NCBI GenBank assembly: GCA_913058215.1
Contig: CAJXQE010000017.1
Coordinates: 1 to 38,057, forward strand
Length of the DNA: 38,057 nt
From: an uncultured Verrucomicrobiales bacterium
GTDB taxonomy: Bacteria > Verrucomicrobiota > Verrucomicrobiia > Verrucomicrobiales > DEV007
Reading direction: 5' to 3'
Position numbers and translations under genes: made by a program. Below the pieces are notes generated by a model. The model worked only from the letters and a program-made list of their open reading frames with translations, had not been told where the DNA came from and did no database searches. Position 1 is the stretch's first letter. Each line of letters opens with the position of its first letter. Of the stretch, positions 239 through 24,330 are shown in pieces.

Positions 239-2673
239 AACGATTCATTCCGAACACCGCGGCCATCCACGCCACAGGCCTTGCTCTGTTGACCGGTGTT
301 CTGTTCCTGGTGACGCCGGCGATTGCTCAGTCGGATGGCGGCCAGTCCCTCACACTTGCCGAAGCCAAGCAGACGCGTTACCAGATCGTGTCGGCCACGG
401 ATGCGGACGGGATCGAGGCCTATGCGGCGAAGACGCTGGCGGGTTATCTGAAGGAAATGACCGGAGCGGAGTTTCCAGTCGTCTCGCCCGATAAATACAA
501 AGCGGATCGGTCGGCCATCTTCGTGGGCCTGAGCGAACCGGCACTGGCGCGGCTGGAGTCGGAACCGCTGGCGAAGTTGCGCGATCAGGAGCACGTCGCA
601 CGCAGCATCGGTCCGGACATCCTGCTCTACGGCAAGGGTCATCGCGCGAGCCTCGACGCCGCGATGGAGTTCCTCGAGAACTCGCTCGGCTGGCAGTGGT
701 ATTCGTTTCTCGAAAAGCCCGTTGTGCCAAAGCGGGCATCGTTGACACTGAAGCCGTTTTCTCGGAAACGCGGTTTCGATTTCGAGTCACGTCAGCTGCC
801 GTTGCGATTCGGTGCGGACTTCTATTTGCAGCAAGGCGTCAACATGGGGCTCGAAACGAAGTTACTTCAGCGACAACAGGCAGTGCCAGGGTATCTCAAA
901 TCCTGGCTGCCGAATGAGAATTTTGTCCACACTTCATTTTCGTACATACCACCGACGCCGGACGATAGAGCCGCGAACGGATTTCCCTGGGTCGAAAAGC
1001 GGAACTATTTCAAGACGAATCCGGAATTCTTCTCTCTCAGCGAATCCGGAAAGCGGGTTCCGAACCTGCAACTCTGCTACAGCAATCGCGGATTGCGGGA
1101 TGAGCTGACCCGTCAGGTGCTGCGGCACATTAAAATCTTGGGTCAACGCCAGCTCATCATGATCGACGCTTTTGATCGACCAGGGCGCTTTTGCCACTGC
1201 GATGACTGCATCGAACGTGAGAAGCACTATCAGACTCCCGGCGGCCCGCTGTTCGACTATCTCCTCGAGCTGTGCAACGCGCTGAAGCTCGACCACCCGG
1301 AGACGCAAGTGAAGACGCTGGCTTATCGCCGCAGCCAGACGCAGGTTCCGCCGCGCTTGCCCGAGGGCGAGAAGCTACCCGGTAACCTCGTCATCGCCTT
1401 CGCGCCCATCGAGGACTGTTACTTTGCCGACTGGACGCATCCTGACCCGAAGATTCAGGAAACGTTTCAGCATCTGAAGGACTGGGCTGCGATCACCGCT
1501 CCGGGAAACCTCTGGGCGTGGATGTATCCGAACCCGTGGGGAACGGGGCACGAGATGCCTGTCGGCAATGTCGAGCGAGTCATCAACAACATGCGACTGA
1601 TGCACAAGGCCGGCGTACGCGGAATCTTCCTCGATCACCACGGCGTCAACTCACGCAGCGGCTGGAGCGAGCTGCAGGCTTTTCTTGTGTTGAAACTTTC
1701 GCAGGATATTGACACCAATACCGACGCGTTGATCACGGAATTCACCGACCACGCCTTCGGTCCGGCAGCTTCGCGGATGCGGCAGTATCTCACGGAACTT
1801 GAAACTGCACGCAAGGCGATAACCACGCTGCCGCCGAACGTGGGCTACAAGTCCCGCAACCTCGACGACCGCACCTTTCCCTACTTGACGGTCGCGAACC
1901 TCCACCGTTGGCAGCAGTGGTTTGAGGAGATGGAAGCCGTCACAGCGAAGCTGCCGAACAAACTAAGCAACGTGCGCTCGCAGCGCCGCGAGTTGGACCT
2001 CGCCACGCTTTGGAAATGGTTCAACCTGCGCGATGCCTGGCCCGCCGTTTACACCGACCATCAACAAGTCGCCGAGCGTGTCCTGGCCGCGAACCGGGCG
2101 AAATCGGATGCCGGTGTCGCGCCGGTCTGGAAACTCGGCGAGGCGCTTGTCGCCCGCTTCGTCACCCTGATCGACGCTGGAGGCGAAAAGCCCTTGCCGA
2201 CGGAATTCGATGGCATTGCTCCCGACCGCATCCGCACTTTTCTACCGAGAAACACTGCCCGCGGCGAAAAGAAACGCAGCGTCGAGGACGACGAAGCCGC
2301 CTTCGGCACGGCCGCTGTGGTGGATCAACCCGGGGAGCCCTTCCGCTGCGGCTTCAGCGAGTGGAAAACCCGCGTGCCCAGTGTCGTCACTCATGGTCCG
2401 CGTCTCGAAATCCCGCGCGACCGGATCACCCCGGGAGAATACCGCCTTTATCCGCTCGGCGAGTTTGACCTGACCACGGACGACAGCTTGATATGGTTTG
2501 GCCGCAGTTGGGCGACCAATCTGGAGGTAGGCTCGCAGTTGTATTTCCCCGGTGAAATCAACCACTGGAAAGCGTGGGTGTCCCTTAAGTTCATCGGCCC
2601 CAACTACGGTGGTAAGGGTGAAGACCAAGTCCTCTGTGACCGAGTGATCCTGGTGCGTCAGGGCGCGGAGTGA
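235..2673 (+). CDS. Secreted DUF4838 (GH67-like N-terminal domain) glycan-active protein, 812 aa
   Basis: The start chosen is ATG 235, because a signal peptide follows directly (MKRFIPNTA, then a hydrophobic stretch ending in TPAIAQ) and because it overlaps the upstream stop as ATGA. The open frame continues upstream to 46, but those codons belong to the preceding gene in another frame. Residues about 40-170 resemble the N-terminal domain of GH67-type alpha-glucuronidases. Residues about 180-610 match the DUF4838 region, a predicted TIM-barrel related to glycoside hydrolases of unknown specificity. A Cys motif C-H-C-D-D-C lies at residues 320-325, in the same place as in the two paralogues of this window. 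The last 130 residues look like a beta-rich accessory domain and not the CBM9-like domain seen in the paralogues. The gene overlaps the TPR gene by 4 bp (GTGA). The substrate is unknown; linkage to a lyase-like gene suggests a uronic-acid-containing glycan. Confidence 0.85.
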   Translation: MKRFIPNTAAIHATGLALLTGVLFLVTPAIAQSDGGQSLTLAEAKQTRYQIVSATDADGIEAYAAKTLAGYLKEMTGAEFPVVSPDKYKADRSAIFVGLSEPALARLESEPLAKLRDQEHVARSIGPDILLYGKGHRASLDAAMEFLENSLGWQWYSFLEKPVVPKRASLTLKPFSRKRGFDFESRQLPLRFGADFYLQQGVNMGLETKLLQRQQAVPGYLKSWLPNENFVHTSFSYIPPTPDDRAANGFPWVEKRNYFKTNPEFFSLSESGKRVPNLQLCYSNRGLRDELTRQVLRHIKILGQRQLIMIDAFDRPGRFCHCDDCIEREKHYQTPGGPLFDYLLELCNALKLDHPETQVKTLAYRRSQTQVPPRLPEGEKLPGNLVIAFAPIEDCYFADWTHPDPKIQETFQHLKDWAAITAPGNLWAWMYPNPWGTGHEMPVGNVERVINNMRLMHKAGVRGIFLDHHGVNSRSGWSELQAFLVLKLSQDIDTNTDALITEFTDHAFGPAASRMRQYLTELETARKAITTLPPNVGYKSRNLDDRTFPYLTVANLHRWQQWFEEMEAVTAKLPNKLSNVRSQRRELDLATLWKWFNLRDAWPAVYTDHQQVAERVLAANRAKSDAGVAPVWKLGEALVARFVTLIDAGGEKPLPTEFDGIAPDRIRTFLPRNTARGEKKRSVEDDEAAFGTAAVVDQPGEPFRCGFSEWKTRVPSVVTHGPRLEIPRDRITPGEYRLYPLGEFDLTTDDSLIWFGRSWATNLEVGSQLYFPGEINHWKAWVSLKFIGPNYGGKGEDQVLCDRVILVRQGAE

Positions 2674-3104
2674 AACGTTTAATAAGTGGCAACCGTGCTC
2701 ATTTGAAATTGGAGGAAATGGGATCAGGCAACAGGGGGCGAGCCTACTACATCACCAAAGCCGAGACGGATCTCAGCAAGGCGCTACCGTGGACCAGCGA
2801 CCCGGAAGCCCGCGACGCGGTTCTATTGATGCTCGCCCAGAACCGGGAAAACAACCTTGGAGACGACGACCGCGCTTTCGAAGCCTACGATGCGATCGTC
2901 GGCGGTCGTGAACGCATCGGTGGCGCGAATCATTTCTATGCGCTGCAGGGGCTTGCCCGGATTCTCACCAAACGCGGTCAATTCGATGAGGCCCTGAAGA
3001 CTCTGGATCGCGCGAATCCAGAGAAGTTGCAGGGGAGTTGGAAGGAGAACATTCTGCGATCGATTGAGGAGGTGGAGGAAGCGAGAGGGGGTGGGGCGAA
3101 GTAG
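2670..3104 (+). CDS. Short TPR-like protein, homologous to the C-terminal tail of the 1094-aa DUF4838 protein
   Basis: The 144-aa frame starts at GTG 2670, which overlaps the stop of the DUF4838 gene, so translation could be coupled. A second start is ATG 2718. From about residue 23 the protein aligns almost without gaps with residues about 940-1065 of the DUF4838-CBM9-TPR protein at 20898-24182. Shared landmarks are TSD, NRE, the DD-x-A block, YALQGLARILTKRGQFDEA against YSGLQGAAKILTKQGKFDEA, and L-x-G-SW. The motif is a tetratricopeptide-type helix pair used for protein contacts. It lacks both the first TPR units and the final repeat of the larger protein, and has no signal peptide of its own. 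It may therefore be a decayed, 5'-truncated remnant of a fused gene, or a separate subunit working with the DUF4838 protein. I cannot tell these apart from the sequence. Confidence 0.65.
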   Translation: MKRLISGNRAHLKLEEMGSGNRGRAYYITKAETDLSKALPWTSDPEARDAVLLMLAQNRENNLGDDDRAFEAYDAIVGGRERIGGANHFYALQGLARILTKRGQFDEALKTLDRANPEKLQGSWKENILRSIEEVEEARGGGAK

Positions 3105-3495
3105 GGGTACCTCCGTGCGTCCATGCGATGGATAATCGGTTGCGACCTTGTTTCGTCATCCCCTGCATTGCCAAGAGTTGGAGAGAGAGGCGTGATGTAA
3201 GGGGTAAATCGCGCACCTAACACCTATCCCGGATTTGGCTGGCCCCGACTGAGAATGCGCCCTCGCCGTCGGCTGGACAAAGAGTGGGTGATTGGAACCT
3301 CCTTTTTTAAGCTCTTTCATCAAGCCGCTTCCGACCGGTGGGTGGGCGGATGGGGAGCAGACGCAACCCTATTGGATCAGCGACCTCACCCTGTTGAATC
3401 GGCCTGAGATTTATCAACAACCGACGACTCGTTTCGGCGTACCTTGCAAACCCTGCCAGCGCATGACAAAATCAGGTAAGATCCGGTGTCCCAAA
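3105..3495. other. Intergenic region upstream of the TIR-STAND gene, no recognised gene
   Basis: About 390 bases without a convincing gene. The frame of the TIR gene stays open upstream to 3292, but those 68 codons show no recognisable domain and the TIR fold begins at the Met at 3496. Short frames on the minus strand here are compositionally odd and have no recognisable motif. Base composition shifts from GC-rich to AT-rich across this stretch, so it probably contains the boundary of the accessory segment. No clear terminator or promoter could be assigned by eye. Confidence 0.5.
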
Positions 3496-6400
3496 ATGAA
3501 ACGTTTTTCAGTCGCATTATCATTCCCAGGAGAGAAACGACAATTTGTGGAGAAAGTTGCGGATTGTCTTTCCGCTGAATTTGGAAGAACAAGGGTTCTT
3601 TATGACAAATATTTAAAGGAAGAGTTTTCGGTTCTCGAACTGGATGTCTATTTGCCAAGTCTCTATCGGAAAGAATCTGATTTGGTTGTCGTCTTCCTTT
3701 GTGATGAATACTTAAAGAAACGGTGGTGTGGTCTTGAAATGCGACACATCAGAGAGCTGATCGCAACTGAGGATCAGCATCGTATTATGCTAATCCGGTT
3801 TGATGACAAGATTACCTACGAGGAGTTGGGTATATTGTCAGGCGATGGATTCCTACCTATTGCAGGGAAGACACCCGGGGAAGTTGCCGCGTCAATTGTG
3901 AGGCGCAGCCAAATCCAATATGATCCCGTAAAGCAGCGACCCGATAGCAAAGAAGTATCTCGTGATTCTTCTGATCTGCACGTCTTCTACGGAAGACAAC
4001 GGATAAGGATATACGAAGACCTTCAAACAAAATGGCTCTCAAATAATTTGGTGTCGATTGCTGTTATTCAGGGAATTCCCGGTATTGGGAAGTCTCAACT
4101 CGCTCGACAACTGGTTTCGGAATCCAAGATGCGAACTCTCTACCTCCCGATCGAGAATTTGTCAGGTGACTCAGCATTTGAAATTTTGTCTGAGCTGCTT
4201 TCACTCCTTGGCAAAACAAATCAGAGTGAGACGATTCAAAATTCAGTTTCTACCGACTCTGAATTCTTCGTAAGGTCGATTCACGCACTCCTTAAAGAGA
4301 ATGAAATTGTCCTTGTGCTTGATGACTTTCATAATGGCTTTGAGCAAGGCCGTGACACGATTCCAGATGTTTGGCGAAAGCTTTTCGAGAGAATTGGCAA
4401 TGAACCAAATTTCCTCGGTAAAGTGCTTATCATAAGCAATCGCTCATTGCCTTCTACGCGTTGGTCTGAAAATGCCTTTGTGAGAACCTTGGAGGGGCTC
4501 GAAGAGAAACAGGCGGAAGAGTTCCTGCTGAGCTTGCTCTCGACCAAATCAATCGAGGTGGAATCGCTTAATGATCGAGCTGCTGAGATTGTTCAGAGAT
4601 TAGGAGGAAATCCAAGAGCGATAAAAACTCTCGTGTCGGGACTCGAATACAGCTCCCTCGACGAATTGCTCTTCTTCGCGCCAAAGAAGTCCGACCTAAG
4701 AGATGTCGAGCTAAGCACCGAGTTGTTGGAGGGTTTTGAGCGTGAAGTCCTCTCACGAACACTCCCTGATCTTTCAACCGATTTGACCGCGTTTTTGAGG
4801 GCTCTTTCAGTTCATCGGCGACCGTGGAGAAGGGAAGCAATATCCTTCTTGCAGAAAAGTTTTCAGGACTGCATGAAGTTGAGAAGGTCTCTCATTGATC
4901 GGTTTTTCCTTGAATGCTCACATGGAGTTGAATCGATTCATCCTTTAGTAAGAGAAATCTGCGTTTCGAGACTTCGCGAAATTAGCTCTGAATGGAAGCG
5001 CGCTCACGATGCAGCGGCAAACTACCATCTAGATGGTTTCAATCTTCGGAAAAACGAGGATTCGAAAAAGGTTTCGACGTCATATTTGGAGTTGAGATAC
5101 CACTTGTTTGAGGCGAAGCGCATGTCCGAACTCCGGACCGCTACTAAAAAGCTTTGCGCATTCATTCTGAGAGTAATTCAAAAGCAAAAATTAGCACATG
5201 CCCCTAAAGATCCAGCCGAAATCGAAGAGCACATCGTGCTGATCGATAGTCTTCCATCAAATGAGCGAACACATGGTCTCGAATTTCACCTAGCGTTGTG
5301 TTTGCGTGAACGAAACCTAACAGGCGATTTTAATCGTGCGCTTGAACATGCTCGGAAAGGTGTAAGCAGGAGTTCCTACTATGCCGCCTGGCTGCTACTT
5401 CTTGAAATCGAATACGAGATCAATGGTGGTGATTCCATTATTCCAGTCGCTCGCCGGGCATTAAAGGCGTTGCAGGGAAAAGGCAACGCATTTTCGATCT
5501 ATTTGCGGAGTTCCGATCTTCTCGACAAGTCAGGTCGTACGAATGAAGCAATCGCGCTCTTAGAAGCCGGTATTTCTGACGAAAAGCTGGAATGCAGGTC
5601 AGTCTTACTTACGAATTGCACCCATCGGCTAGAGGAATCTGGGCGTAGGGATCGAGCTATAGAATTGATCCTGTCGAAATTGGGCAGCTTTAAGCCGACC
5701 GACCAAGGCCCACTTCTTGTTAGGTGTGCGGGATTGTTAATGGCAGACGGGAGGGCCAATGAAGCGATTGACAAATTGAGAGCAGGAATGGGCGTCGAAG
5801 GCATCTCAAAAAGGCACGTGTTTTATCTTCAAATTTCTGATTTCTATCTAGCAGAGAATGAGCCTGAAGAAGCGATTCGAATTCTTCGGGCTGGAATTGC
5901 AGATCCAGAAGTTATTGACCCTAAGAAGCTATTTTCAAAGTGTGCTCAAATCTTAGCTGAAGGCGGGCGAGAGTCCGAGGCTCTTGATCTTCTAAGTGAT
6001 GGTATTGATAATGAGAAGTGCAGGGACGTGGCACCTGTCATTCATTCGATCGCTGATATCTTAGAGAAATCGGGCAAATACGAGGAAGCAGTCGCGATAG
6101 TGGAGAAAGCGCTAACCGACAGAACGCTCGCTAAGGAAGTTTCGATTTATCTAGCCTGCGCAAAGTTGCATTTTCACGCGAGGCGCCTGAGCCCGGCCCT
6201 CGTTGTTTTAAAGAGGGGTATTGCGAAGGAGGGGATAAGAGATAAGGAACAACTCTATCACATGGCCGGCGATATCGCAGCACACCATGGAACAAATGAT
6301 GACGGGATAAAAATTCTGTTGGAAGGAATCCGAACTGTACCTTCGTCAAATCGATACGGACTTTATATGCTTGCCTCGAAACTTCTGACAAAAGACAATC

Positions 6401-6837
6401 GAATAGATGAAGCAATTGACCTTCTGCAGTCTGCAATCGAAGCGCCAGCACTGAAAAATAAGGCACCAATAATTCAGGCGTGTGCAAAATTACTCATTCG
6501 CAAAGAAGAATCGGCGCAAGCTCTAAAGTTACTGGAGGTCGCAATACGAATGCCAGGACTGACTGGAATCGTTGTCATTTACCAATACTACGGCGAGCTT
6601 CTCGAAAAGAATGGAGAGCGACGGAAAGCGATTGACCTTCTAATTGAAGCGATAAAAGGTCCAAAAATTGGGAATGTTGTTTCCCTCTACAAATTGGCAA
6701 GCGAGATGTTGACCCGGGAGGGAGAGGCTGAAACTGCAATCGAACTACTTGAACTAGGATTAAAAGCATTTCCAAAGGACGGAGCTTTGAAGTCGGCTTT
6801 GACACGACTTAAGGGTATTCGGCTGGAGTCACGCTAG
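3496..6837 (+). CDS. TIR - STAND NTPase - TPR-like repeat protein (NLR-like, putative anti-phage defence), 1113 aa
   Basis: The start chosen is ATG 3496, since the TIR domain begins at once with KRFSVALSFPGEKR; ATG 3463 is an alternative. Residues 1-105 are a TIR domain. Its WCGLE motif (residues 77-81) puts Glu81 where the catalytic glutamate of NADase TIR domains sits. Residues about 165-500 are a STAND/NB-ARC-like ATPase: P-loop GIPGIGKS at 193-200, Walker B IVLVLDDF at 271-278, an IISNR sensor at 312-316, GGNPRAI at 370-376 like the plant GLPL motif, and IHPLVRE at 481-487 like the MHD box. Residues about 520-1113 are helical repeats, eleven of them exactly 36 residues long (685-1080). 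By analogy with known TIR-STAND proteins, the repeats would sense an invader, the ATPase would oligomerise, and TIR would degrade NAD+. The gene is clearly richer in A/T than its neighbours, which suggests transfer. It appears to act alone; no obvious partner gene is adjacent. Confidence 0.9.
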   Translation: MKRFSVALSFPGEKRQFVEKVADCLSAEFGRTRVLYDKYLKEEFSVLELDVYLPSLYRKESDLVVVFLCDEYLKKRWCGLEMRHIRELIATEDQHRIMLIRFDDKITYEELGILSGDGFLPIAGKTPGEVAASIVRRSQIQYDPVKQRPDSKEVSRDSSDLHVFYGRQRIRIYEDLQTKWLSNNLVSIAVIQGIPGIGKSQLARQLVSESKMRTLYLPIENLSGDSAFEILSELLSLLGKTNQSETIQNSVSTDSEFFVRSIHALLKENEIVLVLDDFHNGFEQGRDTIPDVWRKLFERIGNEPNFLGKVLIISNRSLPSTRWSENAFVRTLEGLEEKQAEEFLLSLLSTKSIEVESLNDRAAEIVQRLGGNPRAIKTLVSGLEYSSLDELLFFAPKKSDLRDVELSTELLEGFEREVLSRTLPDLSTDLTAFLRALSVHRRPWRREAISFLQKSFQDCMKLRRSLIDRFFLECSHGVESIHPLVREICVSRLREISSEWKRAHDAAANYHLDGFNLRKNEDSKKVSTSYLELRYHLFEAKRMSELRTATKKLCAFILRVIQKQKLAHAPKDPAEIEEHIVLIDSLPSNERTHGLEFHLALCLRERNLTGDFNRALEHARKGVSRSSYYAAWLLLLEIEYEINGGDSIIPVARRALKALQGKGNAFSIYLRSSDLLDKSGRTNEAIALLEAGISDEKLECRSVLLTNCTHRLEESGRRDRAIELILSKLGSFKPTDQGPLLVRCAGLLMADGRANEAIDKLRAGMGVEGISKRHVFYLQISDFYLAENEPEEAIRILRAGIADPEVIDPKKLFSKCAQILAEGGRESEALDLLSDGIDNEKCRDVAPVIHSIADILEKSGKYEEAVAIVEKALTDRTLAKEVSIYLACAKLHFHARRLSPALVVLKRGIAKEGIRDKEQLYHMAGDIAAHHGTNDDGIKILLEGIRTVPSSNRYGLYMLASKLLTKDNRIDEAIDLLQSAIEAPALKNKAPIIQACAKLLIRKEESAQALKLLEVAIRMPGLTGIVVIYQYYGELLEKNGERRKAIDLLIEAIKGPKIGNVVSLYKLASEMLTREGEAETAIELLELGLKAFPKDGALKSALTRLKGIRLESR

Positions 6838-7552
6838 TAGTCCTAAGGGGCCGGGGTCAGGGCTGGGAGCAGGCGACCAATTCCAAAATTTAATCACCCG
6901 CAGAAAAACGGAGCGTCAGAGGTTGAGCGGGACGTTTCCAATTTGTTGATCGCGCACCTGACTCGTTTCCCGGGTCCCGTTTGATTCGCAGTGGCTCGGT
7001 TCTTTTATCAATCCTCCGCTTCGTCAGTCTCCAGTGTCCAGCTGACCGGGTTGACCAGCAGGCGGCGGACATCCGCCAACTGCATGTCCTGCGGGGCGCC
7101 GTGACAGTTTGCGCGTCTGGGATCGACGGTTGATTTGTCGAAAGTTTTTGGCTGACCTCAAAAACTCCCCGCAATCCAAAAAAAGGATTCCGCACTAGGC
7201 GGCAACTAGTGCCGCAATCTGCGCGATCTCTTTCGGTCGGACTGGTGAGAATACTTTACGCGGCTTGTGAGAAATATTCCCATCTCGACCTGGATTCCCT
7301 CGCTCTCCATCTGGTCCACAAAAATTCCCGGGGACAGGTGATTTATTTGGTGTCAAAAATGTTGATTTCCATGTTTTTTCCTAATTTCCGCAATTATAAG
7401 CACGAAACGAGAATTATAATTCGCCCGTCCGTGCGAATTTGCTAATTTTGCGGAGCAGTAGAAACTTAAGTTTTTCGACTTTTGATATTCAGAATCTGCT
7501 GGAAAAAGGGCTCCTGCAGCGAGTGAGGTCACTCTGATCTAGCTGGCTCCAT
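6838..7552. other. Decayed intergenic region after the TIR-STAND gene
   Basis: About 715 bases without an intact gene. The only stretch with protein-like character is a short minus-strand frame at 7008-7157 (listed separately). 7330-7500 is very AT-rich and shows no coding pattern; it could hold promoter sequence but no confident -35/-10 pair was chosen. The composition changes abruptly inside the region, as expected where an accessory segment joins older sequence. Confidence 0.45.
7008..7157 (-). pseudogene. Short C-terminal gene remnant of unknown family
   Basis: Reading the minus strand, about 49 codons run from just after an in-frame TGA to the stop at 7010-7008. The last part is protein-like: CHGAPQDMQLADVRRLLVNP, then a short acidic tail ending in DEAED. 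It has no start codon in a sensible place and no ribosome binding site, so it looks like the 3' end of a gene that has lost its front part. I do not recognise the family. A longer overlapping minus-strand frame (6890-7195) has a basic, Trp/Arg/Ser-rich translation and looks like the shadow of this one. Confidence 0.3.
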
Positions 7553-7969
7553 TCAAGCTTCTTCCATTTCGACCGCAGAAGGAAATAATTTGAGAATGTC
7601 GCCACACTCTTCTTCGAGGACACCGGTATCGACAAACTCGTCTCCCCTTATGACCGCTGCCGCAAATCTGTGCTTACCATCGTGAATACGCACATTGTGT
7701 GCCGAATCTAACGGCTCGATAGCCAGAATAATTCGGTCTTTGATTTCACTTCGATATAGCGTGGCAATACGATTGACGTGAAATGCTTTGGACTCTAGGG
7801 AGTTCCCGTTAAAATTGTATTTAGCATCGTTCCAATTGCGGTTTTCGATTGCGCCTTCATCAATCGCTGCCCAGACCTCTTCAATCGAAATGGATTCGCC
7901 ACTCCATCCGTCCTTCAGGGGATCGAAGTGGGCGGAAATTTCGACAGTCTTTATCCGATAGAATGGCAT
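7553..7969 (-). CDS. Small ParB/sulfiredoxin-like protein, 138 aa
   Basis: An intact AT-rich gene whose product starts MPFYRIKTVEIS and has no signal peptide. The clearest motif is HDGKHRFAAAVIRGDEF (residues about 95-111), which matches the 'DG-x-H-R-x-x-A-x-x-x-x-G' signature of ParB-like nuclease/CTPase and sulfiredoxin-fold domains. The protein is much shorter than a chromosome-partitioning ParB and lacks a recognisable helix-turn-helix, so it is more likely a stand-alone member used in an accessory function. It shares the low GC of the TIR-STAND gene about 700 bases away but points the other way, so joint function is only a suggestion. No clear ribosome binding site precedes ATG 7969. 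Confidence 0.55.
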   Translation of the reverse strand: MPFYRIKTVEISAHFDPLKDGWSGESISIEEVWAAIDEGAIENRNWNDAKYNFNGNSLESKAFHVNRIATLYRSEIKDRIILAIEPLDSAHNVRIHDGKHRFAAAVIRGDEFVDTGVLEEECGDILKLFPSAVEMEEA

Positions 7970-8220
7970 TGCGGAATCATTCTACTACGAATTTGGCGGA
8001 GAAAAAGGCGAGGTGGGTTTCAGGCATAATCCTGGAAAGAAGCTCAAAAAAATGTGTTGCGCGATTTGTGATCCCCTCACGGGAAGACAAGGGTCCTACC
8101 AAGTGCGTTCAGCATCAATCTAAAGATTTTCTTTCACTTTTGTTTTACGAACCAACAGGGTTGCCTCAACGAACGTACCCTATTGACTCGTGAAGCACCC
8201 CTTCGTTTACGCATGCGCAA

Positions 8221-9948
8221 CTATCCGCCGTCGCTTGCATCCGGATGGTTCGCATCCAGTTTCTCTGATTTTGGTTGATTGGGTAGCGTGAACGTCGCAA
8301 CCACAGCACGGTGGTCAGATGGATAAGGAGAAACGACAATGTCCGCGTTGGACATATTTTCACCGACGATGTTTGCTCCGGTCACTTTTACGCCTTTGCC
8401 TTTGAAGTAAATAAAATCGATGCGGTCGTGGTGGGTCTTGGGGTCATCAGCCTTCATGATGGGCGTCCAGGTGAAGCCGGGATTTTTCATCTCGTCGGGA
8501 TAGACCGTGCGCCAGGCATCGGCAAAGCCTGCTTTGGTCATTGCCAACGAGTTGGGATATTCGACTTTGATGGGGTGGCGACCGGACTTGGCAGCGGCTT
8601 CGGTCCAGTCGAGGTGGGAGGGTTCGTTAAAATCGCCTACCACAAAAACAGGGGTTTCTTTGTCGGGGAGGGAATCTATCTGCTTGAGAAGTTCAGAGAT
8701 TTCCCCGCCGCGGGCCTTGCTTGCGCTGGCAATCGCCTCGGCTTCGGTCTTGATGAAAGGAGTATCCTTGTGTTTATGCCACTTTGGTTGAATGCCCAAA
8801 AGCTGGTAGGGCTGATAGGGGTTTGATGGTAGGTGCAAGTTGAAGATGTAGGCATGCTGACCAGAAGGCAGTTTGACCTTGATGCCATCTCTCTTCTCCT
8901 CGACAATCTCATAACGCGTTACGATGACCCTATTCCCAGGGTTCACATGGTGATTCCAGCCCAGCAACTCTGCCAACTTCTCCGCATTAACGTCGCCCGG
9001 GGAACGCGTTTCCTGGATACCGACAATATCTGCCTTTGCCTCCTGAATCACTTTGACCGTTTGGGACAAGAGTTGCCCCCGCATCGTGCCGCCGCGATAG
9101 ATATTGTAAGACATGACCTTTACGCCGGACTCTTCGGTTTGCGCCTGCAGGGGATTCCGTGGGAACACTAACTCCGCCCAGATGGGTTTGTGATCAGACA
9201 AAGGCTTTTCCAGTTCGATGATACCTCCGTCAGTTGCCTTGGCTCCAGCCGAGGTGTTGTATAAGATGTGATCGATCACCCCCAGATTTTTTTTGGGGTC
9301 CTGGGCGTTGTAGGTAAACTCCTTTGAGACATCAATTTTTAGATCGTTCCATGTCGGTCGGAATCCCGCCCCCTCGATTGTTTTCATGGCAGCATCGCCA
9401 ATCTTGTTGTTGAAATCACCGACCACGATCACCCTTTCAGTTGCCTCCTTAGGTAAAACCTTGGTCGCAAGGTGATGGGCATGGCCGTCACTTGCGCCCG
9501 ACTTACAGATATGTAGCGAGTAAAATGCGAACGAAACTCCATCAATTTTAGTCACGGCTCTGACCGCCGATGCAGGATTCCAACCACGGCCCGTGCTCGT
9601 GAGCTTGTGTTCTTCTGTGCCTTCTAACGGTGTTCTGCTGAGAATCGTCTTGTACTTATCCTTGTGATTTGCCGATGAGATCTTGCCCACATAGCTGTGT
9701 TCCATCCCGAGCACCTTGCCGACGCGAGCTGTCCAATCGCCATCTGGAGCTTCGTCAAAACCGATGATATCCAGCTTGTATGGCTTGAACATCTCACCAA
9801 TCTGTTCCGGGGTCGCGCTTTTGCTGAACTCAACATTATAAGAAGCAACACGAACCGTAATGGGTTTGTCAGGCTCTGAGGAGGCAAGACCAAGCGTCGC
9901 TCCGCACATGCAGGTAACAACAAAGGATAATAATTTAATGGCTCTCAT
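8221..9948 (-). CDS. Secreted protein with two EEP (endonuclease/exonuclease/phosphatase) domains, 575 aa
   Basis: A signal peptide (residues 1-23) is followed by two complete domains of the DNase I-like EEP superfamily, metal-dependent phosphodiesterases or phosphatases. Domain 1 (about 31-262) has SYN at 36-38, Glu66, the GDFN motif at 177-180, D-H at 226-227 and SDH at 251-253. Domain 2 (about 276-555) has SYN at 280-282, QE at 312-313, GDFN at 438-441, DRID at 508-511 and SDH at 544-546. Both halves therefore keep the metal and catalytic residues. Family members cut DNA/RNA, phospholipids or inositol phosphates, and the substrate here cannot be told. The gene follows the metallophosphoesterase with only 8 bases between stop and start, so the two probably form a phosphate-releasing pair at the end of the DUF4838 operon. 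The last 20 residues are hydrophilic and unstructured. Confidence 0.88.
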   Translation of the reverse strand: MRAIKLLSFVVTCMCGATLGLASSEPDKPITVRVASYNVEFSKSATPEQIGEMFKPYKLDIIGFDEAPDGDWTARVGKVLGMEHSYVGKISSANHKDKYKTILSRTPLEGTEEHKLTSTGRGWNPASAVRAVTKIDGVSFAFYSLHICKSGASDGHAHHLATKVLPKEATERVIVVGDFNNKIGDAAMKTIEGAGFRPTWNDLKIDVSKEFTYNAQDPKKNLGVIDHILYNTSAGAKATDGGIIELEKPLSDHKPIWAELVFPRNPLQAQTEESGVKVMSYNIYRGGTMRGQLLSQTVKVIQEAKADIVGIQETRSPGDVNAEKLAELLGWNHHVNPGNRVIVTRYEIVEEKRDGIKVKLPSGQHAYIFNLHLPSNPYQPYQLLGIQPKWHKHKDTPFIKTEAEAIASASKARGGEISELLKQIDSLPDKETPVFVVGDFNEPSHLDWTEAAAKSGRHPIKVEYPNSLAMTKAGFADAWRTVYPDEMKNPGFTWTPIMKADDPKTHHDRIDFIYFKGKGVKVTGANIVGENMSNADIVVSPYPSDHRAVVATFTLPNQPKSEKLDANHPDASDGG

Positions 9949-9956
9949 TCTAAGCT

Positions 9957-10936
9957 CTATTTTTTCTTGTCTTTCAAACTGAACTGTCTCCGATCACCGT
10001 GCTGCTTGTGCTTGGGATTGATGCAGTGTAACTCCAGGTCAGCGGACATTTCAGTGAGCTTCATATCGACCCAGCCATGTGCATGGCCTTTTCCGAAATA
10101 GTAGCTGACTGCCGGTTGGTTAACGAGATGGAGATGATCCCGTTGATCATGCTGCCACTCATGGGTGTGACCATAGAAATAGCCCCTGGCATGCTTTCGT
10201 TCGGCAAGCAGTTTCAATAGAGCCGCCCCATCACTCATGCCCTTGATGGGACGCACGCCTCGGTTCGGATACGGGTTGAAGTGACCAAAGATAAGGGCGG
10301 GCTTATCCGCTCGCTCGTCGAGTTCTTTAGCGAGCCAGTCCAACTGTTTTTGCCCCAGGATTCCCTTTCTTCCTGAATCCAAAAGGACGAGGTTCGCGTG
10401 CGGCAGTTCAATCACGCCCGCCTGAACGCCCATGTGCTCCTTCTTCAGGAACGGGAGCAATTTCCACAGGTTCTCCCTATTGTCGTGATTGCCAATCGTC
10501 ACATGAACGGTAATGCCCGCAGCACGAATCGGCTCAACCAGCCGGAGGAACTCTTTGTATTCGGTTTCTCTACCATTGCTCATAGCACAGTCGCCGTTGA
10601 CGATCAGGTGAGCCGGCCGGGGATTGAGAGCGATGACGCTCTTGGCCGCCTCTGCAAGACATTGTGCCATGTTTACGCTTTCATGCTCGTCCTCCCCGAC
10701 GGGAGATCCAGGCCACTTCGTCCCAGGGTAGACAAGATCGGGATCGGCACTGGATCGGGATCGGGATCGGCACTGATGTGGGTATCCGCAAGCAAAGCCA
10801 CCCGGTTTTGGTCCAACCCGGCAGGTTCACTATCCGCGGCGTCCAACGCGCGAGACGTCATCATCGCCGTGCCTCCAAGAGCGAGTGTGCGCTTTGCGAA
10901 TTGACGACGAGTGATCGGTGGAAGAATGATTGGCAT
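9957..10936 (-). pseudogene. Tat-exported calcineurin-like metallophosphoesterase, broken by a frameshift
   Basis: Two frames together give one protein. The first (ATG 10936) carries a twin-arginine signal (TRRQFAKRTLALGG) and the first metallophosphoesterase motif LLADTHIS. The second frame continues with GTKWPGSPVGEDEHESVNM and then the other motifs: NGDCA, GNHD, FGHF and GHTHEW. This is the full metal-binding set of the calcineurin-like family. The junction contains two copies of a 16-base direct repeat at 10736-10751 and 10759-10774, a period of 23 bases. Removing one 23-base unit restores a continuous frame reading HISADPDLVYPGTKW. The downstream frame alone (from ATG 10670) would lack export signal and first motif. 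The gene sits 40 bases after the DUF4838-CBM9 gene. It is either a recent mutant, a phase-variable gene, or an assembly error in a short repeat. Confidence 0.85.
10736..10774. repeat. 23-bp-period direct repeat causing the metallophosphoesterase frameshift
   Basis: GATCGGGATCGGCACT occurs at 10736-10751 and again at 10759-10774, separated by GGATCGG. The unit itself is built from GATCGG steps, which favours slippage. The 23-base period is not a multiple of three, and losing one unit puts the two halves of the metallophosphoesterase gene in frame. Confidence 0.9.
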
Positions 10937-10976: not shown

Positions 10977-13496
10977 CTATTCAATCACCAGCTTCGCGAA
11001 GCGTTCGGGCACATGATAGCTGGGCTTGCCGGTATGTGGAAAGGCCCAGGCGGTTTTGCCTGACGAACGGACACGGGTGCGGCCGACGTTGATATACCAG
11101 GGGGTGTCCATGCCGGGCTTCGCGCCGACGACGTGGTGATTCGGGTCGGCGGCTCCTTCTTCGGCATCGACGACGGGGATACGAACGACGACGCTCCAGA
11201 AATCGTCGCCGTGCTCGGTCTCCACCGTGGCGTTCGATTCCCAACGCTGATTCATGCGGCCGTGGCGATCGGCGTCGAAGACTATCCCGTCCGGATTGAC
11301 TTCGATCTGGTAATACGCGTGGCCCTGGGTTTCGAGCAGGATCGCGATGCTATCGCCGGTCCACACGTCGTCAGTCACGTATAGGTTCTCCATGTCGGGC
11401 TCGTCGCATTTGATTTCGAAAATGACCGCGCCCTCATCGTCCCAGCGAACTTTGAAACGCGTCTTGGTTCCCACTGCTTTGCCGGTCTCAATGTCGACCA
11501 GCGCGAAACTTTGCAAGAACTTCTTCGAGTCGGTCGGGCGACCGACAATCGTCGGTGCGTCTTTGCGGGGATCGCCCATTTCGGCCAGCCGCGCAACGGT
11601 CTGGCGCAGATCGTCCGGCTCGGGCAGTTCATCCAACATCATCGCGATACGTTGGCGGTAGACCGAACCACCGGCGGTATCGCGCGCTTTGGCGAGCATT
11701 TCGAGAAACTTCAGCCGGTCTTCGAGGGAGACGTTGGTCGCGCTCGTCGCCTTCACACCGGTGAGAATCGGAGCGTCCGTATAGGCGCGTTCAGCGAATT
11801 CGATCGCGGCCTTCATTTCGCTTGCGACGGGGCCGAAGAATTTTTCGTAGTAATCATCGAGCAAGGCATCGACGTCCTGATCTGCGTCCCAGTAGAAGCG
11901 GGAGAGCACGTAGAGGTTCATGTGATTCAGGGCGGGGTGATACCATTGCGCATGCCGCTGGCTGACCTCGTTGCAGTCGCCGAGCGACAGGCCTTTGAGG
12001 GCTCGCATCTCGCGGGCCATGGCGTGAGTCTGGAAGACGGGAAAGGGCTCGGGCTCGCCGTCCGTGCCCCAGAGGCTGTATCGGTTGTTCTCCACGCGCA
12101 GCAGGCGCCCGGGGTGGAGTTTTTCGCGCCACGCGTCGACCTGAGCGGAGAAGGTTTCCCAATACTCGTCGTTCATGAACCGGGGCCGACCGCGATTGGA
12201 AAGGAAGACGCCGACATTGGGCGTGAATTTCTCGACGTTTTCCGGCGGCTCGACGTAGCTGGTGTAGGCCCCGCCCGAGACCAGCCGGTCGGGGTGCGTT
12301 TTGTAGAGCGCACGACCAACGCGATCGATGAAGCCCCAGACAAGGTCGGAAGCCGACTGTCCCGCGCAGCTGTCGCATTGGCAGCTTTTGAACCCGTCGG
12401 TCGGCCAGAGCGAAACATGCGGTTCGTCGTAGTGATCGAAAAGGAACTGCGCGAATTTGATCGTCTCTTGCTCGAGCCCTTCGGAGGTGTAACAGGCGGT
12501 GCCGTAACCGCGATGCGATGTGTCGCGCTTGTCGCCAATCAGTGCGTAAAAATCGGGGTGAGCCTCTTTCATGGCGTCCCTGCGGTGCACAATAGCGTGA
12601 CCGTGGGCATAACTGAGGTTGCCGAGCACGTGGTAGCTGGAATTGATACCGATTCGGCGGCCCCAAATGACATCGTGCCAGGAAAAGGCTGCGTAGTTGT
12701 ACCAGTTAGCATAGCGCAGCGGGTAATCAGGAAGCGTCGTTGTATCGGGTTCGAGATCGTCGATTCGTACCGTATCCATCCGGGGCACGACCTCGCCCAC
12801 TTCGCCAGGCATAAACCAGCGCACGCCCAGAGATCGGAGCAAATCGTAAACGGCGTTGAGGGAACCGCCTTCGTCCTGCATCCAGAATCCACCTCCGGTG
12901 TGCGTGTGATCGCTCTTTTGCCACAGCTCGCTGTTGTCCTTGCCATAACCTTCGAACATGACTTGGAGTTCAGCGCTCTTGTTCCAGACGTGTTTGTATA
13001 AGGTACGGTGAGGGAAACCCCAGGCAGTGTCGGTGTGTTCGGCTGTGATTTTGTCCCACTCGGCCCTGGCGCTGGCCTCGAGTTCTTCGCTACGTTTGTG
13101 GGGATAGGGATTCGGCGGGATGTAATCGAAGTCATTCCCGATCAACGTCAGCCAGTTTTCGCCCGAGGCGATGCGGTAGGCGCCGTATTGGAGTCCTTCG
13201 GCAGTGACGCCCAGTTTGTCGGTGTGTTCGCTGCGCCCGACGTAGATTTGAACCGGAGTTCCGTCGGTAGGCTCATGCACAATGGGCAAAAGCGCTTTGG
13301 TGATCTTGTGCAGATAACGCTGCAATTCAAAGGCGGCCAGGTTGACCATGCGAGGCGGCTTTTCGGCGATGATGATTTCGGCCCGAGGCTGGCCGTCTTC
13401 GATCAAAGTCAGCGGATCGGCAAAGACCAGGGACCCCGTGAAAGACAGCATCGCGGCAGCAATGGCGAGCGAATGGAAAAAGGTGAAACGATTCAT
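10977..13496 (-). CDS. Secreted DUF4838 protein with C-terminal CBM9-like domain, 839 aa
   Basis: The signal peptide covers residues 1-26. Residues about 28-120 form the GH67-N-like domain (PRAEIIIAEKPPR, then IYVGRSE). Residues about 200-560 form the DUF4838 region, with SLGVRWFMPGEVGEVVPRMD at 222-241 and the Cys motif C-Q-C-D-S-C at 372-377. The last 190 residues form a CBM9-like sugar-binding module, recognisable by W-T-G-D-S-I-A-I-L-L, YYQIEVNPDG and the FW-x-VVVRIP strand. The catalytic chemistry of DUF4838 is not established; kinship with alpha-glucuronidases and its secretion suggest a glycan hydrolase. It is the first gene of a probable operon with the metallophosphoesterase and the double-EEP protein, and follows the DUF4886 gene after 48 bases. 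It is closely related to the 1094-aa protein at 20898-24182 but lacks its TPR tail. Confidence 0.88.
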   Translation of the reverse strand: MNRFTFFHSLAIAAAMLSFTGSLVFADPLTLIEDGQPRAEIIIAEKPPRMVNLAAFELQRYLHKITKALLPIVHEPTDGTPVQIYVGRSEHTDKLGVTAEGLQYGAYRIASGENWLTLIGNDFDYIPPNPYPHKRSEELEASARAEWDKITAEHTDTAWGFPHRTLYKHVWNKSAELQVMFEGYGKDNSELWQKSDHTHTGGGFWMQDEGGSLNAVYDLLRSLGVRWFMPGEVGEVVPRMDTVRIDDLEPDTTTLPDYPLRYANWYNYAAFSWHDVIWGRRIGINSSYHVLGNLSYAHGHAIVHRRDAMKEAHPDFYALIGDKRDTSHRGYGTACYTSEGLEQETIKFAQFLFDHYDEPHVSLWPTDGFKSCQCDSCAGQSASDLVWGFIDRVGRALYKTHPDRLVSGGAYTSYVEPPENVEKFTPNVGVFLSNRGRPRFMNDEYWETFSAQVDAWREKLHPGRLLRVENNRYSLWGTDGEPEPFPVFQTHAMAREMRALKGLSLGDCNEVSQRHAQWYHPALNHMNLYVLSRFYWDADQDVDALLDDYYEKFFGPVASEMKAAIEFAERAYTDAPILTGVKATSATNVSLEDRLKFLEMLAKARDTAGGSVYRQRIAMMLDELPEPDDLRQTVARLAEMGDPRKDAPTIVGRPTDSKKFLQSFALVDIETGKAVGTKTRFKVRWDDEGAVIFEIKCDEPDMENLYVTDDVWTGDSIAILLETQGHAYYQIEVNPDGIVFDADRHGRMNQRWESNATVETEHGDDFWSVVVRIPVVDAEEGAADPNHHVVGAKPGMDTPWYINVGRTRVRSSGKTAWAFPHTGKPSYHVPERFAKLVIE

Positions 13497-20897: not shown

Positions 20898-23800
20898 TTA
20901 CCGATTTGATAGTTTAGCGATCGCCTGTTCGGCCTTATCCAGCAGAGACTTGGCAGCCGATTCGTGTTTAATCACGGCCCGGTAGTTTTTCAGTGCCTCG
21001 TCCCTGCGACCAGCAGCGGCCAAGGTTTCCGCCATGGAAAACAACATCGATGGAGCCCAACTTCCTCCCAGTTTCCCAACGTCGACCTGATTCAGGATAC
21101 TCATCGCTTCGTCGAACTTGCCTTGTTTGGTCAGGATTTTCGCTGCGCCCTGCAGACCGGAATAATACTCGGCGCTTCCGATGTTGGTGGTTGAAGCTGC
21201 GATGCGACGAAACGTTTCCAGCGCCAGATTGTCGTCTTCCAAAACGGTCTCCCGATTTCTCGCCATTGCGCTGAGAATGCTCACGCGGGCCCGGGCATCG
21301 GAAGTGAACTCGAGGGCGAGTAGAAAATCTTTATCCGCTTTCAAGCCGGCCTTTGCTGCGTGGAAGGCTTTACCTCTAATCGCGGCGGCCGCTCCGACCT
21401 CGGTGAAGGGCCACTTGCTCAGATCCTCATCGCCAAACTGCTCAATGATGGCATCCCGATTTTTCTGGCGGGCGAGGTTTTCCATCTTAGCGACTTTCGC
21501 AATGGATTGGAGTGGTATCCGGCTGGCCAGTCCCATGGCCTTGTCGTCATCTCCCGCGAACCGGGCGCAGGCGGCCGCTTCGGCGAGGGCTCTGGATTTC
21601 TGGTAGTCACTGGCTCCTTCGTAATCGGCCAGTGCGACGAATTGAGACTGCGCTTCCGCGTATTTACGGCTTCTCTTCGCCTTCGCAGCGGCGGTAAACT
21701 CGATAAGAAAATCGGTGATCGTTTCGTCAATCTCGAACGCGTGGGAATGACCATCGTAGAAGTGTGCAAACTTCAGTGGAACGTGGAAGGCTTTGGTGCC
21801 GGTGGGTGCCATGGCCGAGAGCTCGGTGCCACTTTCACGTGACCGTTGTCGGCAGATGTTGAAATGCCAGGGAAGGCTCTGCGACGGCTTGCGACCGATC
21901 ACAAAATTGAGTGGATCATTCTCGTCCTCCGTGACCGGGATTCGGATTTCGATATTCCAATGATCATCGGCGACATGGGTCGCCACCTCGGCCTGTGACT
22001 CCCAGCGGAACCATCCGGATTTGGCCGCGCCACGATCGAGATCAACGAGGGCACCCGCCGGATTGACAGCAATCTGGTAGTAAGTGTGAGAATCGGTATC
22101 GAGCAGAATTTCCACGGCATCACCATACCAGAGGGCCTGATCATCGTGTTTGCTTGAGGTGATATTCAGCTCTTCTCCGGGGCGTTCCTCGCAGCGAATC
22201 GCGAAGTAAAGGTTTTGCCCGCCCTTGTCCCATGCCGCCATGACCGAGGTGCCAAAGACCGGTTGCTCGCCGGTCTGTAGTTCGCGGAGTTGTGCTACGG
22301 ACCAAGCTTTGTGACGGATCCAGAATTTGTCGTCGAACTTGCCGTCGATCACGATGGGTTCGGTAGGTCCCCAAACGGTCCGGACTTTCGGAACCGGTCC
22401 CCTCCCCTGACTGAGTTGCTCGCCCTTGCTGCGGAGAGCGTTGAGAAACTCGTCGATCCGGGCGAGTCGCTGAGCATGAATCGAATCAGACGGCACGCTG
22501 GATTTTGCTTCATCGAAAAGAGCCAGCGCGGTTTCGAGTGGCTCCGGATCATCGTCCATCGCCTGGTAGTTGGCTTCGCAGTAGTCGAAGAATTTCAACA
22601 TCACGGGTCCGGCCGCTCCGTAGAAGGTATCGCAATACTCCTTCAGCAATTTCTCTACATCAGCATCCTCGCCGCCCCACCACATCCGCGCCGTGAAGTA
22701 AACCTGGAAGTGGTCAAACCCGATATTTGGATCGTCGTGATCTCGTGGGAAACTCAGCCAGATATCTTCTCCCCGTGACAGTCCCTTGGTCGCATTGATA
22801 CTTTCGCCAATGGTTCTGGCAACGAAGGCCGGCAGGTAGGTGCCGCGACCAGTGAATGGGTAGTTTTCAAATATAATGATCGGGCGGTCGGATTTCTTCA
22901 ACCACCCGGCCCGAAGATTGTCCACATATTCCCGCTGTTCGGGGAGGCTGTTGCGGGGACGACGTCCCCCGACGATGATCACCTGAACGTTCGGCTCCAG
23001 TTTCTCGATATTCGTTGGAACTTCGGTATTGGCACCATACGCACAGCAACCAACAAACTTATCCGGATGAGTTTTTGCGACTTCCCGCGCGACTCGATTC
23101 GCGAAATCCCACGCGTGATTAGAAAGCTTTCCCCGCGATCCCATCTCATCGATTTGTTTCCCTTCGCAGAGAGGACACTGACAGATCGAGCCGTAGGCAT
23201 CCGGCGGCATGATCGAGACGGCATCGTAATCGTAAACATCGAACTGGGCCTGCGCCCACTTCACCGTTTCTTGAAACAGCTCTTCGTTCGAGTAACAGAG
23301 ATGATTGAGCCGCTTACCCGTGACGGTGTCGCGTTTGCCGCCATAGAGTGCGAACCAATCCGGCTTGTCGGTTTTGAGTTTCTCAGGATGCGTCATCGTA
23401 TGCATCCCGTGCGCGATCATGAGTCCATAGACCTGGCGGATACCAAGGCGCATTACCCAACGGGTCACTTCATCATCGGTGTTTCCCAGTCGCACGCTGA
23501 ATTGCCGGATCTCGAAATCCGGTACCGCCGTTTGATCGATATCCGGAAGAGCGATCGAATCCATTTTCGGAATCACTTCACCCAATTCACCCGGCATGTA
23601 CCAGCGGACGCCAAGGCTGCGGAGAAACCCGCAAACCGCGTTGTAGGAACCGCGTTCGTCGAAGGCCCAGAAGTTTTCGCCCTGTTCCTTTGCAAGGTGC
23701 TCCGGCATGCGTCGCCGGTTTTTATACATCCCTCCATTGGGGACGCCGTAGGGCAGGCCGCTCGCTTCTTCCCACCGTCCCTGAAGAGTCTTCCTGCCTC

Positions 23801-24182
23801 CGTTGTTCGTCGCCCATGGCTCGATCGGTTCGAACTCGGTGTCGTCGCCAATCAGCGCCAACCAGTTTTCGCCTGATTTGATGCGATAGGCTCCGTCCTT
23901 CAGGCCATCCGCAGTGACGCCAAGTTTCTTCAATCCGGAACTTTCCCCGACATAGATGGAAAGGTTCGTGCCACCGGCTTCGGTGGTCACGGGAAGTTTT
24001 GTGCCGGATATTTTCTCCAAGGTCAACTGCAACTCATCCGCTGCCAGGCGGGTCGTCCGCGAAGCGTCTTCGGCGATGACGATTTCGGCGTTCGCTTGAC
24101 CGCTCTCGACAATGAACGGGGCGGAAAGAACTGGATGCGTTAGCAGGAAGGCCAGTGTGAGAAAGGTTGGAAGGTATTTCAT
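20898..24182 (-). CDS. Secreted DUF4838 - CBM9-like - TPR protein, 1094 aa
   Basis: The signal peptide covers residues 1-21. Residues about 22-115 form the GH67-N-like domain (ANAEIVIAED, then IYVGES). Residues about 170-560 form the DUF4838 region with SLGVRWYMPGELGEVIPKMD and the Cys motif C-Q-C-P-L-C at 334-339. Residues about 605-815 are a CBM9-like module (PIVIDGKFDDKFW, then WYGDAVEILLDTDSHTYYQI). Residues about 850-1090 are TPR-like repeats ending in AAGRRDEALKNYRAVIK. The first three domains are shared with the 839-aa protein; the TPR tail matches the separate small protein at 2670-3104. The likely role is binding and cutting of an exported glycan, with the TPR part holding a partner protein. 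It heads the pair with the DUF6807 gene and starts 132 bases after the PVC dehydrogenase gene. Confidence 0.88.
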   Translation of the reverse strand: MKYLPTFLTLAFLLTHPVLSAPFIVESGQANAEIVIAEDASRTTRLAADELQLTLEKISGTKLPVTTEAGGTNLSIYVGESSGLKKLGVTADGLKDGAYRIKSGENWLALIGDDTEFEPIEPWATNNGGRKTLQGRWEEASGLPYGVPNGGMYKNRRRMPEHLAKEQGENFWAFDERGSYNAVCGFLRSLGVRWYMPGELGEVIPKMDSIALPDIDQTAVPDFEIRQFSVRLGNTDDEVTRWVMRLGIRQVYGLMIAHGMHTMTHPEKLKTDKPDWFALYGGKRDTVTGKRLNHLCYSNEELFQETVKWAQAQFDVYDYDAVSIMPPDAYGSICQCPLCEGKQIDEMGSRGKLSNHAWDFANRVAREVAKTHPDKFVGCCAYGANTEVPTNIEKLEPNVQVIIVGGRRPRNSLPEQREYVDNLRAGWLKKSDRPIIIFENYPFTGRGTYLPAFVARTIGESINATKGLSRGEDIWLSFPRDHDDPNIGFDHFQVYFTARMWWGGEDADVEKLLKEYCDTFYGAAGPVMLKFFDYCEANYQAMDDDPEPLETALALFDEAKSSVPSDSIHAQRLARIDEFLNALRSKGEQLSQGRGPVPKVRTVWGPTEPIVIDGKFDDKFWIRHKAWSVAQLRELQTGEQPVFGTSVMAAWDKGGQNLYFAIRCEERPGEELNITSSKHDDQALWYGDAVEILLDTDSHTYYQIAVNPAGALVDLDRGAAKSGWFRWESQAEVATHVADDHWNIEIRIPVTEDENDPLNFVIGRKPSQSLPWHFNICRQRSRESGTELSAMAPTGTKAFHVPLKFAHFYDGHSHAFEIDETITDFLIEFTAAAKAKRSRKYAEAQSQFVALADYEGASDYQKSRALAEAAACARFAGDDDKAMGLASRIPLQSIAKVAKMENLARQKNRDAIIEQFGDEDLSKWPFTEVGAAAAIRGKAFHAAKAGLKADKDFLLALEFTSDARARVSILSAMARNRETVLEDDNLALETFRRIAASTTNIGSAEYYSGLQGAAKILTKQGKFDEAMSILNQVDVGKLGGSWAPSMLFSMAETLAAAGRRDEALKNYRAVIKHESAAKSLLDKAEQAIAKLSNR

Positions 24183-24210
24183 AAAGTTCGGATTGCGGTA
24201 AGTCGTTGAT

Positions 24211-24330
24211 TCATTGATTTAGCCATTCGGGCAATAATTCCAGCTCCATGCATGAGACACCTTCGCGACTTTTCATTTCAAGGTGTTTCAGGCTGATGCT
24301 CCCTTGCTTCAGCTCTACTGCAACGATTTC
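24211..24330 (-). pseudogene. Coding scrap between two secreted-protein genes
   Basis: On the minus strand a frame different from both neighbours overlaps the end of the PVC dehydrogenase gene and runs to TGA 24213-24211. It reads VELKQGSISLKHLEMKSREG, then VSCMELELLPEWLN. The alternating pattern, with 'V-x-L-K-x-G-x-x-x-L' and a closing 'M-x-L-x-L-x-P', resembles the last strands of beta-sandwich modules at the end of many secreted glycosidases. There is no plausible start, so I take it as the 3' remnant of a lost gene. Confidence 0.3.

Follow-up and report, generated by a model that had tools for sequence, protein, structure and literature searches.

The stretch of DNA analyzed here (the window, 38,057 nt from an uncultured Verrucomicrobiales bacterium) carries a gene for a receptor-like protein of 1113 amino acids, P0001 (nt 3496-6834), which combines an N-terminal TIR domain, a STAND-type nucleotide-binding region and a C-terminal array of 36-residue repeats of the tetratricopeptide repeat (TPR) type (Table 1). 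Pfam models for TIR_2, NB-ARC and many TPR families (TPR_14, 4.2e-19) match the whole protein. The TIR domain, P-loop and Walker B motif listed in the original prediction, which was made from the sequence without database searches, were confirmed by both sequence and Pfam, with the P-loop and Walker B motif located inside the NB-ARC match. The TIR domain carries a conserved Glu (Glu81), which we take to be the catalytic residue of an NADase. An upstream TTG at 3292 would add 68 residues to P0001, for which nothing similar is found in P0003, a homologue described below that shares the TIR N-terminus of P0001 from the ATG at 3496; this ATG is therefore the likely start. Residues 386-612 are conserved relative to P0003, have no Pfam match and are poorly modelled, but lie in the right place for a winged helix and an arm, names used here by analogy with the STAND proteins PH0952 and MalT. 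Neither a DNA-binding domain nor GT4 was found among the best 25 of the 35 Pfam families matching P0001.

The original prediction divided residues 685-1080 into eleven consecutive units of exactly 36 residues, preceded by a less regular twelfth (residues 649-684), and this period was reproduced. The segment splits without gaps, and at lag 36 its BLOSUM62 self-score averages 0.65; in 5000 shuffles, the highest-scoring lag between 28 and 45 reached at most -0.39 (mean -0.67, standard deviation 0.06). The five best lags within 5-199 were 108, 72, 144, 36 and 180, all multiples of 36, and 36 was the lag chosen in every 108-residue window from residue 649 on; residues 1-150, 150-560 and 560-700 showed no positive lag within the ranges tried. 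Units three apart score highest (34.0 on average at spacing 3 versus 13.7-27.4 at other spacings) and lag 108 scores above lag 36, both hinting at a possible three-unit higher-order period. Pairwise, the units share only 2 to 13 of 36 residues and no DNA-level repeat was detected in the window array; the array is therefore old.

A TPR core profile (position-specific scoring matrix) was built from seven 34-residue units of two proteins, L108 and L031, which were chosen for TPRs resembling the array; the choice of source was thus not blind, although the profile remains independent in length and register. This profile matches the array at 36-residue steps in both P0001 and P0003, with 4 of 12 peaks in P0001 and 11 of 11 in P0003 above the 95% shuffle level. 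In the TPR register, units begin at residues 666+36k, which gives twelve units followed by a capping helix. While the unit length of 36 instead of the canonical 34 was thus upheld by self-comparison and core profile, the earlier register was not, as it cut inside the unit, before helix B. The irregular stretch at residues 649-684 is not a single unit; it contains the tail end of a preceding helix together with the first well-formed helix A.

In Pfam, TPR models are favoured for the two arrays (TPR_14, 1.4e-23 in P0001 and 1.9e-26 in P0003). Small residues at positions 8, 20 and 27 are a trait of TPRs; P0001 and P0003 together have 24 units, and G, A, S or T occupies these positions in 24, 24 and 23 of them, respectively. 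The canonical TPR superhelix, as in OGT (1w3b) and the designed CTPR proteins, is built from 34-residue units. The two-helix unit with its small residues is thus found in both proteins, yet at a length of 36, and helix B is followed by a linker some two residues longer than that of the canonical repeat; the array is a length variant of the TPR. No Pfam model listed for P0001 or P0003 corresponds to an array of 36-residue units; although TPR_7 comprises 36 states, its best stretch in P0001 spans only states 2-29. As the core profile likewise gave no 34-residue register with indels, neither of the two results named as refuting in the original prediction was obtained. The array also fits the unit length of Sel1-like repeats (36-44 residues), but Sel1 was not among the 19 Pfam families matching the P0001 array nor among the best 25 of 29 for P0003. 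Sel1-like repeats with a 36-residue unit in a solenoid are known from H. influenzae, and the length itself therefore has a precedent, although those repeats carry their own conserved Gly/Ala pattern (PMC4792463). The unusual feature of P0001 is its fixed 36-residue repeat length; among the open-access papers listed in a literature search, no title or abstract opening described an NLR-like protein with an array of 36-residue TPRs.

Relatives were obtained by a profile scan of genome contigs with the family alignment A3, which gave 61 loci. One of these, L038, in a Thermodesulfovibrionia metagenome-assembled genome (MAG) of the phylum Nitrospirota, encodes P0003, the one further protein with TIR, STAND and 36-residue repeats found by the kind of search that the original prediction had proposed. 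P0003 aligns to P0001 residues 2-1104 with about 40-41% identity (74/222 in the NB-ARC part and 146/396 in the array; other parts in Table 1) and carries the same TIR, STAND and twelve units, the array showing no indels relative to P0001. The alignment is gapped at the N-terminus, at two internal sites (residues 163 and 185) and in the C-terminal tail, and nowhere else; the absence of indels covers all of residues 186-1104 and is hence not special to the array. When units of P0001 were compared to those of P0003, the positional counterpart (the diagonal) scored highest in its row for 8 of the 12 units, suggesting that the array is probably older than the split between the two genes. The gene before P0003 encodes a YhcG/DUF1016 nuclease, which matches the PADLOC candidate PDC-S02 (1.7e-157).

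Table 1. Features of the receptor gene in the window (nucleotide positions of the window; residues of P0001)
Feature	Position	Strand	Basis
TIR-STAND-36-residue-TPR receptor gene	3496..6837	+	ATG start, stop included, 1113 aa
TIR domain, residues 1-141	3496..3918	+	Pfam TIR_2, residues 6-106, 7.6e-8; 82/141 identical to P0003
Glu81 in WCGLE, putative NADase catalytic Glu	3736..3738	+	W77 and E81 invariant in 18-row alignment A7
NB-ARC/STAND nucleotide-binding region, residues 179-381	4030..4638	+	Pfam NB-ARC, 7.5e-8
P-loop GIPGIGKS, residues 193-200	4072..4095	+	Sequence; G193, P195, G196, G198 and K199 kept in P0003
Walker B VLVLDD, residues 272-277	4309..4326	+	Sequence; L275 and D276 kept in P0003
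Presumed winged-helix and arm region, residues 386-612 (approximate boundaries)	4651..5331	+	108/227 identical to P0003
Twelve 36-residue TPR-type units in the TPR register, residues 666-1097	5491..6786	+	Self-comparison, profile, homologue, predicted helices
Eleven 36-mers of the original prediction, residues 685-1080	5548..6735	+	Gap-free split
C-terminal capping helix, residues 1096-1112	6781..6831	+	AlphaFold2 model

In an AlphaFold2 model, the array forms a confident solenoid, in line with the regular solenoid with longer turns that had been predicted. Helix A is modelled with 13-14 residues and the A-B turn with 3 residues, each in 11 of 12 units; helix B spans 12-14 residues and the linker to the next helix A is 7 residues in 8 of 12. 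Predicted helix-A starts are spaced 33-39 residues apart, exactly 36 in 6 of 12 steps; the sequence period is therefore strict, whereas the helix ends in the model are variable. A Foldseek search of PDB with the whole P0001 model gave 6mfv_A, a STAND protein with a TPR sensor, as the top match (E 2.8e-10) and the plant TIR-NLR RPP1 (7dfv_A) at rank 49. TM scores (template modelling) were low (0.16-0.34), and these matches thus support the kinds of domain present and not one shape. With positions classed by TPR geometry, 25 of 72 presumed groove positions are identical between P0001 and P0003 compared to 11 of 72 outer helix-B positions (Fisher p 0.012); identity is at a level similar to the groove in the remaining non-core positions (25/84) and in the linker (29/96), and a conserved binding site is not claimed.

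A related switch with a different predicted effector was found at L103 in an Acidobacteriota MAG (frame 3159-6821 on the minus strand, 1221 residues). This protein is 56% identical to P0003 over 604 residues and contains a STAND region, about two 36-residue units and then unlike sequence, with a Pfam GT4-conflict match at residues 827-1208 (7.8e-123) and no TIR match. A 62-nt stretch in the two units is repeated at a spacing of 108 nt (36 residues) with 95% identity, which is in keeping with the addition of units in steps of this length. When fused to STAND proteins, GT4 domains are predicted to serve as conflict effectors, and a conflict glycosyltransferase taking the place of TIR on a related switch is the pattern described for conflict systems in the same paper (PMC8195603); the L103 protein, with STAND and a C-terminal GT4-conflict domain, is of this kind, whereas P0001 differs in having a TIR and no GT4 match among the Pfam families listed. 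The L103 genome also carries L058, which encodes a TIR protein with 40-residue repeats.

The 36-residue array is rare among the TIR proteins examined, in searches that cover part of the known genomes. Best frames were obtained by blastp for 57 of the 61 loci (the four without a frame were dropped), and a period was considered significant if it scored above all of 60 shuffles. Among the 57 TIR-bearing frames, the period was 40 in 21, 41 in 4, 42 in 3 and 36 in a single one (L038), while 19 had no significant period and 9 had fewer than 200 residues after the TIR. L041, for which the best lag was also 36 but far below the shuffles (-0.17 vs 0.00), was counted as having no period. The 28 relatives with 40-42-residue repeats share the TIR type of P0001, and those aligned in A3 also the STAND-type ATPase, but differ from P0001 in repeat length. 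A peptide-pattern search of genome contigs with P0001 identified no further member among 26 candidate stretches. P0001 matched in 29 of 384 genomes of its class; beyond its own protein, these matches covered fragments of a TIR, in some cases extending into the STAND, or fragments of TPRs, and none of 11 regions taken from this search had period 36. The STAND part alone matched only its own genome among the same 384, and the three-unit profile A2 (1e-6) only its own protein among 387 genomes of the phylum. The C-terminal profile A5, run against the 30 genomes behind 30 of the 61 loci, matched in three, representing two new members and G653 (8.6e-7), which was rejected as a TPR-rich protein without a 36-residue period. 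In 265 genomes of the L038 phylum, profile A6 recovered the known member as well as G917, an ATPase whose TPRs are 34 residues long; in 267 genomes of the L058 phylum, it recovered only the known member. No match was found in 139 and 130 genomes of the L045 and L041 phyla, respectively, searches that had no positive control and are hence uninformative.

Other TIR proteins among the relatives differ in layout. TIR proteins at L069, L079 and L084 (Verrucomicrobiota MAGs) have 42-residue repeats that closely resemble one another (self-score 3.3-4.3), which points to recent expansion of these arrays, in contrast to the old 36-residue array. L021 encodes on its minus strand (1611-5150) a TIR protein of 1180 residues, with a TIR 53.6% identical to that of P0001 and, by eye, a second TIR-like stretch followed by a NACHT-type STAND and TPRs; L040 encodes a protein of equal size. 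The same TIR type is located at or near the C-terminus of larger frames in L043, L046 and L047, suggesting that it has moved between protein ends. On plasmid CP050566.1, a TIR match at 24164-24595 lies under a gene annotated as an S8 family serine peptidase, a possible TIR-protease fusion.

The GC content of the receptor gene is 0.44-0.48 compared to 0.55-0.63 to its left, which is in keeping with gene transfer. From about 3300 to 10200 in the window, GC content is 0.44-0.53, over the receptor gene and two phosphatase-like genes to its right. The window context, inspected by eye and by Pfam for six neighbours, appears to consist of carbohydrate and secreted-hydrolase-like genes. A large frame at 46-2673 matches Pfam DUF4838, and two further large frames (10977-13496 and 20898-24182), which look alike on inspection, may belong to the same kind. 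Some 21 kb away from the receptor gene, a transposase/integrase-like gene (27645-29018, plus strand) matches rve weakly, at 3e-4, which does not reach the curated cut-off.

P0001 resembles known STAND proteins. PH0952, for which a crystal structure is available (6mfv), and MalT have a STAND core, an arm and a TPR sensor with a capping helix; P0001 shares the STAND core and the capped TPR-type array, with a presumed arm between them. In both PH0952 and MalT, the nucleotide-binding domain stays clamped by the arm and the sensor as long as no inducer is bound (PMC6468293). PH0952 differs in having six typical TPRs and in being described as a putative transcription regulator, with no TIR named in that description. 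The 'TIR-NLR' protein of P4-like satellites, which protects E. coli against phages, has the same order as P0001, with an N-terminal TIR, a central STAND NTPase and C-terminal TPRs (PMC9122126). AVAST (Avs) systems use C-terminal repeats to recognize conserved phage proteins. The position of the array as a sensor is thus supported, but the suggestion that the architecture may be undescribed does not hold, and P0001 represents a rare variant of a known receptor kind. From the effector-switch-sensor order of STAND proteins, the PH0952/MalT clamp, the phage-protective TIR-STAND-TPR protein and the exchange of TIR for GT4, we infer a receptor acting through NAD+ (nicotinamide adenine dinucleotide) cleavage. 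P0001 is therefore probably a single-gene intracellular receptor of the immune type. At rest, its STAND core would hold ADP and be clamped by the arm and the C-terminal solenoid. The twelve units would bind an intruder protein or peptide, most likely from a phage, along the helix-A face; binding would free the clamp, allowing ADP to be swapped for ATP and the STAND cores to assemble. The gathered TIR domains would then cleave NAD+, and the infected cell would be stopped or killed.

Several observations weigh against this immune-type receptor. The PADLOC TIR-NLR family (PDLC03015, 824 positions) matches P0001 only at residues 13-111 (positions 12-103; 0.00047), which falls short of a full-length match, and P0003 matches no PADLOC family at 0.01. 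No defence gene was recognized among the window neighbours (frames inspected, six scanned by Pfam), and the low GC content runs rightward to about 10.2 kb, making the argument for an island weak on that side. Viral contigs contained no relative (0/186 and 0/72 candidates), P0003 from the STAND onward had no match in plasmids and phages at 1e-4, and P0001 matched 11 plasmid records and one phage record, all over the TIR only. In the model, the winged-helix and arm part includes long stretches with a predicted local distance difference test (pLDDT) score below 50, and the presumed groove positions are conserved no better than other non-core positions.

In Thoeris, a nucleotide signal made by a TIR protein switches on a separate effector. 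The TIR of P0001 may similarly signal to an effector encoded elsewhere instead of itself depleting NAD+, and the nuclease gene next to P0003 makes a partner there possible; this seems rather unlikely, however, as no ThsA-like gene was found among the Pfam-scanned neighbours (six in the window, two in L038), a search that did not extend to farther neighbours or the rest of the genome. It is very unlikely that P0001 is a metabolic or regulatory switch like MalT: the carbohydrate and secreted-hydrolase-like context, and the STAND with TPR sensor that MalT and PH0952 are described as sharing, would fit such a role, but the N-terminal effector is a TIR, the best Pfam families include no DNA-binding domain, and the L103 relative carries GT4-conflict. 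A nucleic-acid sensor acting like pentatricopeptide repeats (PPRs) was considered since the best PDB match of profile A2 is a designed PPR (5i9d_A, 1.6e-22, versus 1.2e-11 for the best consensus TPR), PF01535 PPR matches P0003 (2.8e-4, below the curated cut-off), and the linker, which often has P, a hydrophobic residue and then D/N before helix A, looks PPR-like in its hydrophobic position and D/N. PPRs have a 35-residue unit and N, S or T as code residues. Here the unit is 36, N, S and T do not predominate at the code position, the net charge of the presumed groove positions is just +2 in both P0001 and P0003, and Pfam TPR models score far better than PPR. A nucleic-acid sensor is hence highly improbable, and the Pfam preference together with the small residues at positions 8, 20 and 27 supports the description 'TPR-type repeat with a PPR-like linker'. 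Finally, the array might consist of standard 34-residue TPRs with indels here and there, or be an artefact of chance or of assembly. These readings would agree with the Pfam TPR label and with the few P0001 profile peaks above the 95% level, but can practically be dismissed and are refuted as far as sequence allows, because lag 36 is strict over 396 residues, a 34-residue core profile steps by 36 in two proteins with all P0003 peaks above that level, and the same array occurs in another phylum with no DNA repeat in the window array.

A 2025 review described 36-residue tricopeptide repeats as 'apparently missing', possibly as an illusion of naming (PMC12691811), and P0001 and P0003 would be natural examples of this length. 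Tentatively, and with considerable doubt, the 12 x 36 array could represent a repeat class of its own, a 'hexatricopeptide' solenoid of bacteria that derives from TPRs and has a distinct linker, a distinct superhelical pitch and a fixed length, serving as a sensor paired with TIR or GT4-conflict, the length reflecting one conserved intruder ligand. Repeat sensors decide what bacterial NLR-like receptors see. That two phyla share the same twelve units at the same length is more suggestive of a fixed ligand than of a diversifying surface, and related switch modules are found attached to two different predicted weapons, TIR and GT4-conflict.

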